DNA from: Phormidium tanganyikae FI6-MK23
GTDB taxonomy: Bacteria; Cyanobacteriota; Cyanobacteriia; Leptolyngbyales; Leptolyngbyaceae
Reading direction: 5' to 3'
Assembly: GCA_019359175.1 (NCBI GenBank)
Contig: JAHHHU010000002.1
Location: 310,001-374,000, forward strand
Length of the DNA: 64,000 nucleotides
The position numbers and the translations under genes are program-made. Below are positions 58,125 through 63,857 of the stretch, one piece after another; the stretch's first letter is position 1, and each line of letters opens with the position of its first letter. Below the pieces are notes generated by a model. The model made no database searches, had not been told where the DNA came from, and worked only from the letters and a program-made list of their open reading frames with translations.

Positions 58125-58235
58125 TGATCTTTCCTTGCAAATCACCGTTTTACTGTAGCGCGGGATGAGGAGCGATCGAGCTTATTTCTTGGGTTGGTAT
58201 CAGCAAAACTCACATTACAAATACTTCTGAGCCAA

Positions 58236-58349
58236 TCACTGATCAAGTAGCGCCTTAACTTCTTCGTCAGTTGGTGGCTTTGCATCGGTCTTCGCGATTC
58301 CGATTAAATTTGCGGCGATTCCTTCCAGCTTGGTGACGGATTGCGATCG
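58236..58349 (-). pseudogene. C-terminal remnant of a small antitoxin-like gene
   Basis: Reading minus from 58349, 37 codons give SVTKLEGIAANLIGIAKTDA and KPPTDEEVKALLDQ, then a stop. This looks like the C-terminus of small cyanobacterial antitoxins. An in-frame stop stands directly before it, inside the loop of the 26-bp inverted repeat, so the gene has lost its 5' part. Confidence 0.5.
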
Positions 58350-58380
58350 CTACAATCGCAATCCGTCACCAAGCTGGAAG
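58322..58380. repeat. Perfect 26-bp inverted repeat
   Basis: The arms 58322-58347 and 58355-58380 are exact reverse complements around a seven-base loop. One arm encodes part of the antitoxin-like remnant; the other is an inverted copy of it that starts three bases after the stop of the neighbouring antitoxin-like gene. It looks like a recombination scar. Confidence 0.85.
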
Positions 58381-58383
58381 CGA

Positions 58384-58560
58384 TTATTCAGCCATTGCCT
58401 CGGCTGCCAATGTTGCCAACAAATCCGGAGAACGCGCGAAGGATTTATCCCATTGCTGATCCTCTTCGAGTTCTTCTAAAATTAGTGTCGCGATCGCGTC
58501 TTGCTTTTCTGTCGGCAAGGTTTTCAGTTGGGCGATCGCCTGTTCAAGTCGCTCAGTCAT
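58384..58560 (-). CDS. Small antitoxin-like protein, possibly truncated
   Basis: A 58-residue helical, acidic protein: MTERLEQAIAQLKTLPTEKQ, then DAIATLILEELEEDQQW. This pattern is common in cyanobacterial antitoxins of RelE- or PIN-type pairs. Homologues usually continue further at the C-terminus; here the frame ends where the inverted repeat begins, so it may be cut short. No toxin gene is on the same strand beside it. Confidence 0.5.
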   Translation of the reverse strand: MTERLEQAIAQLKTLPTEKQDAIATLILEELEEDQQWDKSFARSPDLLATLAAEAMAE

Positions 58561-58706
58561 AATCAAAATCTGATTTTTTGGAGGTGACTTCGATTCTATC
58601 TTCTGGTTCGAGAATTTGCGATCGCCTTTCTGAAACCTTGTGAAAGAGAGATAATTCAGGTGTGATCTCCCGTAACATTACAGGTAGACAGAGCCATCAG
58701 AAGAAA

Positions 58707-58955
58707 ATGGAAAATGTAACAATCGATCAAGCTGAAACGAATCTCTCTGAGTTATTGTCTCGCGTAGAACTTGGAGAAGAAATCGTGATTTCAGATGATC
58801 AAGGGTTTCCGATCGCGAAGTTAGTTCCGTTTCGCACTTCATCAAATCGTCGATCGAGCTTAGGAATGGATCGAGGCAAATTTGTTGTACCAGAAGATTT
58901 CAATGATCCTCTACCGGAGGACATTCTGGCAGCTTTTGAGGGAGATGAAGCTTGA
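58707..58955 (+). CDS. phd: Phd/YefM-family antitoxin
   Basis: An 82-residue antitoxin. The N-terminal DNA-binding part reads VTIDQAETNLSELLSRVELG and EEIVISDDQGFPIAKLVPF. The acidic C-terminus (DPLPEDILAAFEGDEA) would wrap the toxin. The frame extends to a GTG at 58662, but ATG 58707 gives the typical start. Four bases overlap the PIN toxin gene, the classic antitoxin-toxin coupling. Confidence 0.88.
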   Translation: MENVTIDQAETNLSELLSRVELGEEIVISDDQGFPIAKLVPFRTSSNRRSSLGMDRGKFVVPEDFNDPLPEDILAAFEGDEA

Positions 58956-59344
58956 AACTTCTTCTAGATACTCAATGCTGGCTGTGGTGGTTCGCCCAAC
59001 CTGAGCAGTTAAGTGAAACAGTGATTGATCAGATTGCGGATGAAACGAACGAAGTATGGCTTTCAGTTGCAAGCGTTTGGGAGATTGGAATCAAATTTGC
59101 GATCGGAAAGCTTCCACTTCCTGAACCGCCCGAAACCTACTTTCCGAGTCGTATGAAGCAATTAGGTGCAGGATCGTTAGAAATTACTGCTGCTCATGCT
59201 TTGCAAGCTGCTGCATTACCTCCACATCATAAAGATCCATTCGATCGAATGCTGATCGCACAAGCTCAAATCGAAGAAATGGTGCTTGTAAGTTCGGATA
59301 CCGTGTTCAAGCGATCATTCTTAAAGCAACAAAATCCTAGATAG
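58952..59344 (+). CDS. vapC: PIN-domain toxin, VapC type
   Basis: A 130-residue PIN ribonuclease. Acidic metal ligands are visible in LLLDTQCWLWW (D6), SVWEIGIK (Glu), HKDPFDRMLIAQA (Asp) and SSDTVF (Asp). The start must be TTG 58952, because a stop lies two codons upstream in frame and the sequence then matches the usual MKLLLDT beginning. The start overlaps the antitoxin stop (TTGA). Toxin activity is inferred from the family. Confidence 0.9.
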   Translation: MKLLLDTQCWLWWFAQPEQLSETVIDQIADETNEVWLSVASVWEIGIKFAIGKLPLPEPPETYFPSRMKQLGAGSLEITAAHALQAAALPPHHKDPFDRMLIAQAQIEEMVLVSSDTVFKRSFLKQQNPR

Positions 59345-59509
59345 CGATCGCAGTTCTGAAGTGACGATAATGCGATCTCTGGCATTATGTTCTCCCTTGA
59401 ATCACTTCTCTAAATCTCTCACATTGAAAGAGAAATGGTGTTTGCCAATGCCATAACTAACAGGTACCCCTTTTGGAAAGGTACACACGAGCTTTGAAAT
59501 GTGGGCAAT

Positions 59510-60292
59510 TTATAACATTACTACATCATCAATTGCTAATAGCTCTTTCAAAAATAATAAGATGCTGCTTAATTCTGGAATTGCCACTACTGTCTCAGAA
59601 CAGACCCAGTTATTATCAGTAATACTTACAGTGTTGGTCTTACCAGGCTTAAGAACGCTTGCAACTGTTGCAACTATGGCTTTCTCTCTATCGAATGGTT
59701 TCCAGCCTATCCGCCTAATCTCTTCTTCAGAGAACTGGTTGATATATAACTCCGCCCTCTGCATGAACTCAGGATATGCAGACTTGCCACAATTGCACAG
59801 TAAAGTGTCAAGCACTCCTTGGCTGGAGTTATCTGGAAGAACGTGTAAGCCTAACCTTGGAGAATTCTTTGTAAGCACTCCGGGCTTATCAGGAAAATTC
59901 GGGAAGAATTCCTTGAACCCTGCATGATACATCTCAGCAACTTTACTAGGAGTATGCTTATCGGCATCGGCAACGATTCCAAAAGCTAGAAGCGCAGAAT
60001 GATCAATATCTGAGAGCTTAGCAGACAAATTTGTGATAAGTTTGCTTCCTTCTCCAACATATATAGCTACTGAGATGCCACTTGTATAAAGAATAGTAGG
60101 CATATCAAGCCGCATGTACAGCCTTCCAGATTTTGGAGGGTAAATGGGTACAAACTTACGCCAGAAAATGTCTAAATCAGACGTTGTATTATCAAACTTG
60201 TTGAAACCCAATAACTTGTGAAGAATCCTACATAGAAATGCCTGATCATGATTTCCCTCAACACCAATCAAAGCATACCGTTGATCTACCAT
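59510..60292 (-). CDS. DUF3226/Toprim-like protein, partner of an AAA ATPase
   Basis: A 260-residue protein whose N-terminal half shows Toprim landmarks: Glu12 in LIGVEGNHDQAFL, and the acidic pair D109 and D111 in FGIVADADKHTPS. It resembles DUF3226 proteins. It overlaps the upstream ATPase gene by seven bases, so the two are a unit. Overcoming-lysogenization (OLD) nucleases carry ATPase and Toprim in one chain, and the PARIS system splits them into two genes; the present pair has that split shape. A phage-defence nuclease role is inference. The codon use is more AT-rich than that of the neighbours, which suggests transfer. Confidence 0.72.
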   Translation of the reverse strand: MVDQRYALIGVEGNHDQAFLCRILHKLLGFNKFDNTTSDLDIFWRKFVPIYPPKSGRLYMRLDMPTILYTSGISVAIYVGEGSKLITNLSAKLSDIDHSALLAFGIVADADKHTPSKVAEMYHAGFKEFFPNFPDKPGVLTKNSPRLGLHVLPDNSSQGVLDTLLCNCGKSAYPEFMQRAELYINQFSEEEIRRIGWKPFDREKAIVATVASVLKPGKTNTVSITDNNWVCSETVVAIPELSSILLFLKELLAIDDVVML

Positions 60293-61437
60293 CGAACCTC
60301 CTGACCTAACTCCTCCCTGAGAAGCTTTAATCTATTCCAATCGTGTCTCACAACCCGCGTATGCGTTTCTCTAGGTTCCAAACGATGGAGTACTAAATCT
60401 GAATCAGATTCTGTCACATCTAAAAGCGCATCAACCGCTTCAAGACTATGAGTAGTAGCAAATAGTTGAACATCTAATTGTTTACACCATCGAACGAGCC
60501 ACTTAAAAGAGTTTTGAAGTGCTTCAGTATGTATTGTAACTTCTAGCTCATCAATCAGTAAAATTCCTCCCCGAACACTAGCTAGCTTCAAGGCTATGTG
60601 AAGTAGGCGACGAATGCCGTCACCAAACGTACTGAGTGGAGCAAGACCAAGCTTTTCGTGTTGGATGTAAGTATTGGGGCGAGAAGCTATAACATCTGAA
60701 GGTACAAGAATCTCTAAATCGATTATTCCAGCATCAACTTCCCGTAGCAAAGACACCACATCCGCTTTAAAGTTCTGGAAGCTTGCCTCAGATAAGAGCC
60801 TTAGTTGATTTACTTCTGACCTATGGGAGGATGGTGTAACAACCGATGTTTTCAAGTTCAACTGACCAGAACCAGGAAATTTGCCTATGAAATCGTCTTC
60901 CCACAATTGAAAGTTTTGCACAAAAGTCGGAGCGTCTACGAAGCTTAACTGATCAGAATCTGCATGGACTTCTAAATGGAGATCAATTCCTCGGTGAATT
61001 TCTGGGATTTCATCTTCGACTTGTTCACCTTGAGCAAGATTTCTCCTGCGCTTTCTTTCAGAAATCCGCAACCCCTCAATAACTTCATAACTCGCCTGTA
61101 ACTTTTTAACTGGATAAGAACCGTTACCATCAATGAGAAGCTTCCCTGCTTCTATCTGATCATCCTTTTCACCCAGTAAGTCGAGTTTAGGAAACAACCA
61201 TTGTATTGAATCGAGAACTGAACTCTGATTGAATCTATTTTCTTGCTCTCTTTGACGAGCTATTCTAAGCCACTCTCTAAGATCAAGAGGGTGGCAGTAT
61301 ATTGATAATCCTTCTAGTACGCTTGTCTTTCCAGAGTTATTAATTCCCACCAACAAATTAATTTGTCCGAGATGTTCCAATCGCAAATCTCGAATTCCTC
61401 TAAATTGATGAAAATGAATACTCTCTAACTTCTTCAT
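60286..61437 (-). CDS. OLD-like AAA/ABC-type ATPase
   Basis: A 383-residue ATPase of the SMC/RecF-like class. Walker A is GINNSGKTS (31-39), preceded by the N-terminal FRGIRDLRLEHLGQINLLVG typical of RecF/OLD proteins. Walker B reads GGILLIDELEVTIH, and the switch His is in QLFATTHSLEAV. The signature-like part is LSTFGDGIRRLLHIAL. It is the first gene of a two-gene operon with the Toprim-like gene. Lying beside toxin-antitoxin genes, it probably belongs to a mobile defence island. A relation to the rbc genes downstream is unlikely. Confidence 0.85.
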   Translation of the reverse strand: MKKLESIHFHQFRGIRDLRLEHLGQINLLVGINNSGKTSVLEGLSIYCHPLDLREWLRIARQREQENRFNQSSVLDSIQWLFPKLDLLGEKDDQIEAGKLLIDGNGSYPVKKLQASYEVIEGLRISERKRRRNLAQGEQVEDEIPEIHRGIDLHLEVHADSDQLSFVDAPTFVQNFQLWEDDFIGKFPGSGQLNLKTSVVTPSSHRSEVNQLRLLSEASFQNFKADVVSLLREVDAGIIDLEILVPSDVIASRPNTYIQHEKLGLAPLSTFGDGIRRLLHIALKLASVRGGILLIDELEVTIHTEALQNSFKWLVRWCKQLDVQLFATTHSLEAVDALLDVTESDSDLVLHRLEPRETHTRVVRHDWNRLKLLREELGQEVRW

Positions 61438-61536
61438 GCGCTCAGTCTATCCTATATTTGTTGCTCCTGCGACATGATGTAAGCCCTATTTTGTCAAGAA
61501 AAGTTTGGTTGCTATTGATTAATCTTTTCACCAGAA

Positions 61537-61561
61537 AAGGAGATGGATCACCCACCTCCTT
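61537..61561 (-). terminator. Terminator candidate of the rbc operon
   Basis: On the minus strand AAGGAG and CTCCTT, with GG/CC inside, form a stem about 36 bp after the rbcS stop, followed by TTC. The T-run is short. Confidence 0.5.
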
Positions 61562-61596
61562 CAAAAACGATCGCAGAAAAACCTGCGAATCAAAAA

Positions 61597-61953
61597 TTAG
61601 TAGCGATAGCCGCCGCCGCTGTTACCAGAAGAACCAGGCTTGTGAACGATAAAGCTCATCACCTGACATTGTTTGATGTTGTCAAACGCCACCACGCGGA
61701 TATAGCAATTGCCATACTCAGAGCGACACTGTTGCACTTCGTTCAGCACTTCTTGAGGAGAAGTCGCATTGAACAAAGGCAACTTCCACATCGTCCAGTA
61801 GTAGATTTCCGGCGCAGAAGATTCGTTGAACTCGATGCAAGGGAAGAAACCGTTGTCGATCGTGTATTGAATCTGACGCGCGATTTGAGCATCGGTCAGC
61901 GGAGGCAGGTAGGAAAACGTTTCAAAACGCTGCTCTTTGGGTAGAGTTTTCAT
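61597..61953 (-). CDS. rbcS: RuBisCO small subunit
   Basis: A 118-residue small subunit of form IB RuBisCO. Landmarks are [40 protein letters not shown] and [15 protein letters not shown]. The C-terminus carries a Gly/Ser-rich extension ([11 protein letters not shown]), slightly longer than usual. It is the last gene of rbcL-rbcX-rbcS. Confidence 0.97.
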
Positions 61954-62426: not shown

Positions 62427-63857
62427 TCAGACGGTATCAACGGCTTCAAACTCGAACTTGATTTCTTTCCACAGTTCACAAGCCGCAGCCAATTCAGGCG
62501 ACCAGCGACAAGCTTCGCGGATGATGTCTCCACCTTCACGCATCAAGTCACGACCTTCGTTACGAGCTTGGACGCAAGCTTCAAGGGCAACACGGTTCGC
62601 GGTTGCACCAGGCGCATTACCCCAAGGGTGTCCGAGGGTTCCACCACCGAACTGAAGCACTGAGTCATCACCGAAGATTTCAACCAGTGCGGGCATGTGC
62701 CATACGTGAATACCACCGGATGCAACTGCCATCACACCAGGCATAGAAGCCCAGTCTTGAGTGAAGTAAACACCACGAGAAGGATCGCGTTCAATGTAGT
62801 TTTCACGCAGCAAGTCGATGAAACCAAGGGTGATCGCTTTGTCGCCTTCGAGCTTACCCACAACGGTTCCGGTGTGGATGTGATCACCACCCGACATCCG
62901 CAAGCACTTCGCCAACACGCGGAAGTGAATCCCGTGATTCTTTTGACGATCGATGACTGCGTGCATTGCGCGGTGAATATGCAACAGCACACCGTTATCG
63001 CGACACCAGTGCGCCAAGGTTGTGTTCGCGGTGAAACCTGCGGTCAAGAAGTCGTGCATGACGATCGGCATTTCGAGTTCTTTCGCATACTCGGCACGCT
63101 TCAGCATTTCTTCACAGGTTGCAGCCGTCACGTTGAGGTAGTGACCTTTGATTTCGCCTGTTTCAGCTTGCGACTTGTGGATAGCATCTGCCACGAACAA
63201 GAAGCGATCGCGCCAACGTTGGAACGGTTGCGAGTTGATGTTTTCGTCGTCTTTGGTGAAGTCCAAACCGCCGCGAAGACATTCGTAAACCGCACGACCG
63301 TAGTTCTTCGCAGACAAACCGAGTTTCGGTTTGATCGTACAGCCGAGCATCGGACGACCGTATTTGTTGATTTTGTCGCGCTCAACTTGAATCCCGTGAG
63401 GAGGCCCTTGGAAAGTCTTCAAGTAAGCAACGGGAATCCGCAAATCTTCAAGACGCAACGCTTTCAGCGCTTTAAATCCGAAGACGTTACCCACCAAGGA
63501 GGTGAGCAAGTTGGTGACAGATCCTTCTTCAAACAGATCCAAAGGATATGCGATGTATGCGATAAATTGGCTATCTTCGCCACGGACAGGCTCGATATCG
63601 TAGCAGCGTCCTTTGTAGCGATCGAGATCGGTCAACAAGTCCGTCCAAACAGTCGTCCATGTACCCGTTGAGGATTCAGCAGCAACCGCAGCAGCAGCTT
63701 CTTCGGGAGGAACGCCAGGTTGAGGAGTCACCCGGAACGCTGCCAAAATATCAGTATCTTTAGGCGTGTAGTCTGGGGTGTAGTACGTTAAACGGTAATC
63801 TTGTACCCCAGCCTTATACCCAGCTTTGGACTGGGTTTTGGTTTGAGCGTAGGACAT
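62427..63857 (-). CDS. rbcL: RuBisCO large subunit, form IB
   Basis: A 476-residue catalytic subunit fixing CO2 onto ribulose 1,5-bisphosphate. Motifs intact: [19 protein letters not shown] with the catalytic Lys, [11 protein letters not shown] containing the carbamylated Lys and metal ligands, the His of HIHRAMHAV and the loop 6 [10 protein letters not shown]. The C-terminal end ([10 protein letters not shown]) is the tail that RbcX recognises. A GGGAG just before ATG 63857 supports the start. It heads the rbcL-rbcX-rbcS operon of a beta-cyanobacterium. Confidence 0.99.

Follow-up and report, generated by a model that had tools for sequence, protein, structure and literature searches.

A putative split-OLD gene pair of the PDC-M38 kind beside the rbc genes of Phormidium tanganyikae FI6-MK23

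What kind of system is formed by two overlapping genes lying next to the rbc genes of Phormidium tanganyikae FI6-MK23, and what might it do? The genes were studied in a stretch of 64,000 nucleotides (contig JAHHHU010000002.1, positions 310,001 to 374,000), here called the window, from a cyanobacterial-type genome of 5.74 Mb in 77 contigs (G000; other genomes and loci carry G and L numbers). Both are on the minus strand. The ATPase gene (60286-61437, 383 amino acids (aa)) encodes a PDC-M38A-like ABC ATPase of the RecF/Rad50/PtuA type, as judged from its open reading frame (ORF), family matches and predicted structure; the DUF3226 gene (59510-60292, 260 aa) encodes a PDC-M38B-like protein, identified as an OLD-type Toprim from its ORF, its PF11536 match and its predicted structure. 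The stop of the former and the start of the latter overlap by 7 base pairs (bp; 60286-60292), and both ORFs lie exactly where an initial annotation, made from the sequence alone, had placed them. The gene pair is confirmed as real. It probably represents a split-OLD module of two genes that moves horizontally (PDC-M38, with AbiL and PARIS as relatives) and would act as a phage-triggered nuclease in an anti-phage role.

The predicted nuclease and its ATPase

The DUF3226 protein matches its Pfam family (PF11536) over residues 8-231 with an E value of 4.1e-25, and its predicted structure is an OLD-type Toprim fold. The AlphaFold2 model, built on an alignment of 19 sequences, has a mean predicted local distance difference test (pLDDT) score of 85.2 and a predicted template modelling (pTM) score of 0.84. 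In a Foldseek search only Pyrococcus PH0156 (2P62; E 2.3e-7) falls below 0.001, and the C-terminal regions of class 2 OLD proteins rank next (E ~0.025). With VIA-align, 223 residues of 2P62 are aligned at Z 15.3 and a root-mean-square deviation (rmsd) of 3.6, and 171-176 residues of class 2 OLD (four entries from two proteins) at Z 8.5-9.7 and rmsd 4.8-5.3; small-GTPase rows begin beneath these, at Z 6.8. The Toprim fold claimed in the initial annotation is thus upheld, since structure prediction returned such a fold with PH0156 and the class 2 OLD nuclease domains as the best solved matches. PH0156, which we take to be the founder of the DUF3226 family, is the closest solved structure but is archaeal, is described only as hypothetical and has 17% identity. 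AriA, AriB and AbiL proteins are absent among the structural matches listed for the models of both window proteins, which is uninformative either way.

Profile A7, made from 19 diverse DUF3226 proteins of several subfamilies, finds 2P62 by sequence (7.6e-6). Against fused ATPase-Toprim proteins it aligns VEG with VEG and DxD with DxD (Prob 71, E 3.7e-5). When the narrower profile A5 was compared with the PDB, calmodulins were best (0.023) and PH0156 stood at 0.19; the single DUF3226 protein gave chance-level matches only to PDB sequences (calmodulin, chemotaxis proteins). Three fused proteins (619, 660 and 752 aa) carry AAA_15 in the N-terminal part, with DUF3226 and OLD-like_TOPRIM matching one shared C-terminal stretch; none of the three reaches the cut-off for DUF3226, and one exceeds that for OLD-like_TOPRIM. 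Three genomes (L084 1303-3285, L085 1189-3171, L087 768-2741) encode related fusions of ATPase and Toprim, ~660 aa long, whose C-terminal part is DUF3226-like.

A complete predicted two-metal active-site signature is present in the DUF3226 protein. It consists, on the minus strand, of the Toprim glutamate Glu12 (60257-60259), the second acid (D/E) Asp16 (60245-60247), the DxD motif Asp109-x-Asp111 (59960-59968), an acid (D/E) in the helix immediately behind the final strand, Asp162 (59807-59809; helix 160-172 in the model), and the candidate catalytic lysine Lys204 of the helical part (59681-59683; helix 199-214 in the model). Asp109 is found in 18 of the 19 proteins of A7 and each of the others in all 19. 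Glu12, Asp109 and Asp111 are likewise invariant in alignment A2 (7 proteins), and this invariance and the predicted structure agree with the Toprim-like placement first noticed for Glu12 and the Asp-x-Asp pair. The active-site set of class 2 OLD is given as E400, E404, D455, D457, T506, E508 and K562, with E508 in the first helix of the helical domain (PMC6755086, cited, like the other papers below, from excerpted text). The conserved residues of DUF3226 follow this order, except that T506 has no assigned counterpart; the putative residue-by-residue equivalence is inferred from residue order and secondary structure.

The ATPase matches AAA_21 (2.1e-15, 58 bits) and AAA_15 (6.7e-15, 56 bits), both over the Pfam cut-off. 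Its model (pLDDT 77.9, pTM 0.80) aligns with the heads of Rad50, SMC, PtuA and RecF at Z 16.6-19.0 among the best 50 matches listed, and Foldseek pairs it with class 1 OLD (6.2e-10). The motif names used here are those that we presume to apply: Walker A (GINNSGKT, residues 31-38; 61324-61347), an ABC-signature-like motif (STFGDG, residues 269-274; 60616-60633), Walker B (ILLIDE, residues 292-297; 60547-60564), all on the minus strand, and a switch His, which is also present. The motifs are mostly invariant across 20 ATPases, namely at seven of the eight Walker A positions, at G272 of the signature (D273 and G274 in at least 90%) and at L294, I295, D296 and E297 of Walker B.

Pairing, junction and selection

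An ATPase gene whose Walker A is intact lies immediately ahead of 45 of the 47 distinct DUF3226 genes sampled from cyanobacteria; the two genes either overlap or are no more than 27 bp apart. The sample consisted of 49 DUF3226 ORFs (47 paired) from 50 fetched loci, two of which were duplicated. In the other two genes the ATPase is truncated (L065) or cut by the contig edge (L055), and the ATPase profile matches both. In a set of 97 genomes, G000 included, the ATPase was found at 1e-20 in five, each with an adjacent DUF3226 gene, the copy of G049 being broken by an insert; DUF3226 itself matched in eight, the three additional matches being weak and belonging to a second subfamily. Fold, residues and pairing together support the two-gene ATPase and Toprim architecture, like that of OLD and PARIS, proposed in the initial annotation. 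A second DUF3226 subfamily (~215 aa) with its own ATPase was observed, by eye directly downstream of groES/groEL-type genes, in three genomes (L023 7042-8876, L024 6143-7992, L021 6477-8288), two of these loci being in the congeners G001 and G006.

The ATPase-DUF3226 junction is shown by computation to have the appearance of one built for translational coupling. Ahead of the DUF3226 start, the codons for GQEV in the ATPase tail contain a Shine-Dalgarno-like AGGAGGT (60296-60302, minus strand). In 20 of 20 window-type loci the tail codons spell AGGAG, extended to AGGAGGT in 17 of them, a short way before the overlapping start, and the candidate start codons overlap the ATPase stop by 1, 4 or 7 bp. 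At this site CAG is used in 17/17 and GAG in 19/19 cases, whereas over the remainder of these genes the shares are 30% and 25%; L043, near-identical to L045, was left out of these totals, and the loci share ancestry, so that chance figures are non-independent. The pairwise identities of ATPase and DUF3226 proteins are correlated (r 0.70, 0 of 10000 permutations, 18 loci, with L045 excluded), a value that includes species history.

The codon use of the pair is AT-rich, as first noted: at third codon positions the GC content (GC3) of the ATPase gene (0.326) is the lowest, and that of the DUF3226 gene (0.368) the fourth lowest, among the 42 non-overlapping window ORFs of at least 200 aa. Alignment with the copy in G024 (L033) indicates that the pair is under purifying selection, nonsynonymous (dN) and synonymous (dS) divergence being 0.15 and 2.05 for the ATPase and 0.13 and 1.25 for DUF3226, with dS near saturation (dN/dS ~0.07-0.10; the DUF3226 value from one method).

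Breakage was counted in 23 window-type loci whose two genes both lie within the contig (the window, L033-L050, L052, L020, L091 and L099), which are partly non-independent (L043/L045 and L038/L091 are alike); the contig-edge loci L051 and L053 were excluded, the ATPase of L053 being broken. The nuclease is broken beside an open ATPase in five of the 23: in L047 a transposase-like ORF follows, L049 stops prematurely close to the edge of its contig, L050 and L052 have frameshifts, and L020 of G049 has an insertion. A broken ATPase with an intact nuclease was found in none of the 23. The pattern might reflect a cost of retaining the nuclease; this is only suggestive, because deletion of either PARIS gene is non-toxic, and a toxin-antitoxin system was taken there as excluded (PMC9122126). 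At the G049 locus (L020 6737-10131) DUF3226 is split near residue 90 by ~2.6 kb with transposase-like ORFs, and the UBA2566 pieces L051 and L053 likewise separate at residue 90/91. The Hormoscilla locus L052 (5630-10756) holds two ATPase copies, one of them frameshifted, a broken DUF3226 gene and, by eye, an adjoining methyltransferase-like gene that has a possible restriction partner.

Relatives, insertion site and neighbours

By its sequence matches the pair is of a kind already catalogued in PADLOC-DB 2.0 as the candidate defence system PDC-M38. The best match of the ATPase is PDC-M38A (232 bits, 3.8e-69, residues 1-382), and six PDC-M38B models match the DUF3226 protein, the best modestly (42.6 bits, 1.4e-11); the genes overlap, and no difference from the window pair appeared in the features tested. 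The assignment was made from match scores and not by the score thresholds of PADLOC itself. The abbreviation PDC denotes a phage-defence candidate, obtained by 'guilt-by-embedding', and such systems are described in the excerpted text as putative, without experimental validation (PMC10855318, PMC12988326). AbiL is counted among the ATPase-Toprim defence systems (PMC12409363). The best named system for the window ATPase is AbiLi (3.6e-33), although PDC-M38A scores far higher, and the DUF3226 protein has no AbiLii match at E 1. AbiL (AbiLi/AbiLii) is of Lactococcus origin. L102, a member of another DUF3226 subfamily, forms a bridge by matching both DUF3226 (1.1e-18) and AbiLii (1.5e-13). Because of the PDC-M38 matches and this bridge, the suggestion that the pair could be a distinct defence type is unsupported.

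PARIS, designated class 4 OLD (PMC10568477), resembles the pair in its adjacent genes for an ABC ATPase and a Toprim nuclease, of which fused forms exist, and AriA models match the ATPase at 2.3e-17. The partner differs, however: that of the window is DUF3226 and has no DUF4435 match at E 1, as the initial annotation had held. With class 2 OLD the DUF3226 protein has in common a Toprim and a helical part with E, E/D, DxD, E/D and K in the same order, whereas OLD of classes 1-3 is a single chain and the window has ATPase and Toprim as two ORFs. Unlike Gabija, the pair has no GajB helicase beside it, but phd/vapC-like genes on one side and rbc genes on the other.

On the rbc side, rbcL was recognized by eye (62427-63857, minus strand); on the opposite side is a gene for a phytase-like protein (PF13449, 2.2e-82) with a lipoprotein-like start as read from the sequence, in keeping with the rbc and lipoprotein flanks first described. 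A terminator-like hairpin (61571-61588, minus strand) lies between rbcS and the pair, which makes transcription by read-through from rbcS less likely; a search of 61300-61700 revealed no sigma-70-like promoter. Outside the pair, a PIN-domain (VapC-type) toxin gene (58952-59344, plus strand; PF01850, 1.7e-14) and a Phd/YefM-like antitoxin gene (58662-58955, plus strand; PF02604, 1.2e-4) adjoin. The adjoining phd-vapC of the initial annotation thus holds for its toxin and only weakly for its antitoxin, which is below the cut-off. The 60-aa ORF called an antitoxin remnant (58384-58566) has no Pfam match above cut-off, and this label is tentative.

Within the genus the interval from rbcS to the phytase-like gene varies in length: 722 bp (G007), 874 bp (G005), ~3.15 kb (G003), 3.33 kb (G006) and 3.45 kb (window). 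The contig of G002 stops inside the phytase-like gene, and rbcS and the phytase-like gene are non-adjacent in G001 and G004. By blastn the stretch 58189-61534 is unmatched in the near-empty sites of the congeners G005 and G007, whose matching flanks end at 58188 and 58166, respectively, and resume at 61535. The phd-vapC part is common to G002 and G006 (78-83%), which do not share the ATPase-DUF3226 pair of the window; in G024, a genome from another genus, the match to the window is limited to 59566-61454 and lies at a different location. Since phd-vapC occurs without the pair and the pair without phd-vapC, these comparisons indicate that the pair probably arrived as a bare two-gene unit, apart from the toxin-antitoxin genes. 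By eye, the interval between rbcS and the lipoprotein gene holds differing toxin-antitoxin-like genes in G003, G006 and G002 (L026-L030). In G003 a stretch of ~55 bp that lies just behind rbcS (window 61532-61586) and includes the terminator-like hairpin is present twice, flanking a gene that looks PIN-like by eye (L028 ~1300-1356 and 2101-2154). This duplication is perhaps a trace of insert entry.

Of 339 genomes from the cyanobacterial phylum, 65 gave DUF3226 profile matches, 62 of them above the family cut-off; among 14 control genomes only Methanocaldococcus did so. All 21 named relatives found with two peptide patterns are cyanobacterial. At 1e-20 the ATPase was found in none of the seven congeners. 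A PADLOC scan of 104 neighbour ORFs at 18 named loci gave matches to 109 families at 1e-10; among the 25 families listed, none has more than two ORFs, and two of the matches are extra ATPase copies. Neighbours at L035, L036, L040, L045 and L047 look toxin-antitoxin-like by eye, and a type II restriction match occurred once, at L052 by eye. A defence island as the usual setting was rejected, most neighbours being metabolic-looking or unassigned. Of the island at a stable site seen in the initial annotation, the insertion stands, at a variable site, and the defence-island setting is weak; a conserved non-defence context was not found either, as the flanking genes vary between most loci. A preference for a downstream, co-directional position behind rbcS, groEL, acs or hemH was also rejected, because ~16 of 22 window-type loci by eye is not clearly above chance from gene strings.

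Proposed role and rival explanations

In PARIS a hexamer of AriA sequesters AriB and, after sensing a phage protein, frees it as a tRNA-cutting dimer (PMC12409363). By analogy, the window ATPase is inferred to restrain the DUF3226 nuclease until infection. An ATPase oligomer would bind the nuclease and hold it inactive; a phage-derived trigger would release or activate it; the freed nuclease would cut nucleic acid, either host tRNA like AriB or DNA like class 2 OLD; and growth of the infected cell would halt, with phage spread blocked.

Several observations weigh against this anti-phage module. The structural likeness to OLD is only moderate (Foldseek E 0.025, Z below 10), and that to GajA (8tjy, Z 6.6) is background, at the level of small GTPases. 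Profile A5 gave no useful match to fused OLD-like proteins (Prob 1.2), and L092 has Tyr at the D109 position, so that the first Asp of DxD is missing. No DUF3226 relative was found on viral contigs in single-protein and A2 searches, the DUF3226 protein was unmatched on plasmids and phages at the sensitivity used, and the ATPase, searched against plasmids and not phages, had no plasmid match at 1e-15; the AbiLii-like L102 also had no plasmid match. Across the loci the neighbours are mostly metabolic-looking or unassigned by eye. The reverse breakage, with the ATPase broken and the nuclease intact, occurs in L065 of another subfamily, and the non-toxic deletion of the PARIS ATPase is a misfit with a simple toxin and inhibitor view of the breakage (PMC9122126). 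The names 'DUF3226' and 'PDC-M38' are unmentioned in the literature searched, which covers few subscription journals and preprints; neither an experiment on the family nor a Toprim assignment of DUF3226 under that name turned up in it. Finally, the Cran1 class of OLD is non-defensive and serves the archaeal cell cycle (PMC12796447).

Cran1, as an OLD protein in the cell cycle, lends itself to the proposal that the pair is a cellular DNA-repair or cell-cycle factor, a RecF/Rad50-like ATPase with a processing nuclease, and the heads of Rad50, SMC and PtuA are indeed the closest to the ATPase model among the matches listed. However, the patchy occurrence of the ATPase (five of 97 genomes at 1e-20 and no congener), insertion sites that differ in most genomes and the existence of broken copies make such a housekeeping role distinctly improbable. 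Broken nucleases beside intact ATPases, in five of 23 window-type loci, would be expected of a harmful nuclease, and toxin-antitoxin-like genes occupy the variable site in congeners; both would suit a chromosomal or mobile-element addiction unit in which the ATPase neutralises a Toprim toxin and no anti-phage role exists. An ATPase would be an unusual antitoxin, however, and the plasmid and phage searches with DUF3226 and the plasmid search with the ATPase were negative. Single deletions in the analogous PARIS pair are moreover non-toxic (PMC9122126), and an addiction unit is considered unlikely. Other copies broken by inserts or frameshifts might point to a decaying, non-functional island remnant, but in the window the two ORFs are uninterrupted and retain every motif, and dN/dS is ~0.07-0.10 relative to the G024 copy (dS near saturation); decay is hardly to be credited.

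The anti-phage module may also be seen in a wider frame, put forward tentatively and on balance doubtful. DUF3226 might be a split-OLD immune-effector clade of its own, sister to AriB and AbiLii, with several cyanobacterial subfamilies, each locked to an ATPase of its own, that spread as bare two-gene units beside housekeeping genes and not in defence islands; some of these may respond to a trigger specific to cyanophages and cleave either tRNA or transcripts related to photosynthesis.

Through the predicted OLD-type Toprim nuclease with its two-metal signature, DUF3226, a domain of unknown function, gains a testable role, and PDC-M38, until now an entry in a catalogue, becomes a system whose candidate catalytic residues are named. 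To our knowledge few defence systems against cyanophages have been characterised, and the DUF3226 pair would be a common candidate for such a system.

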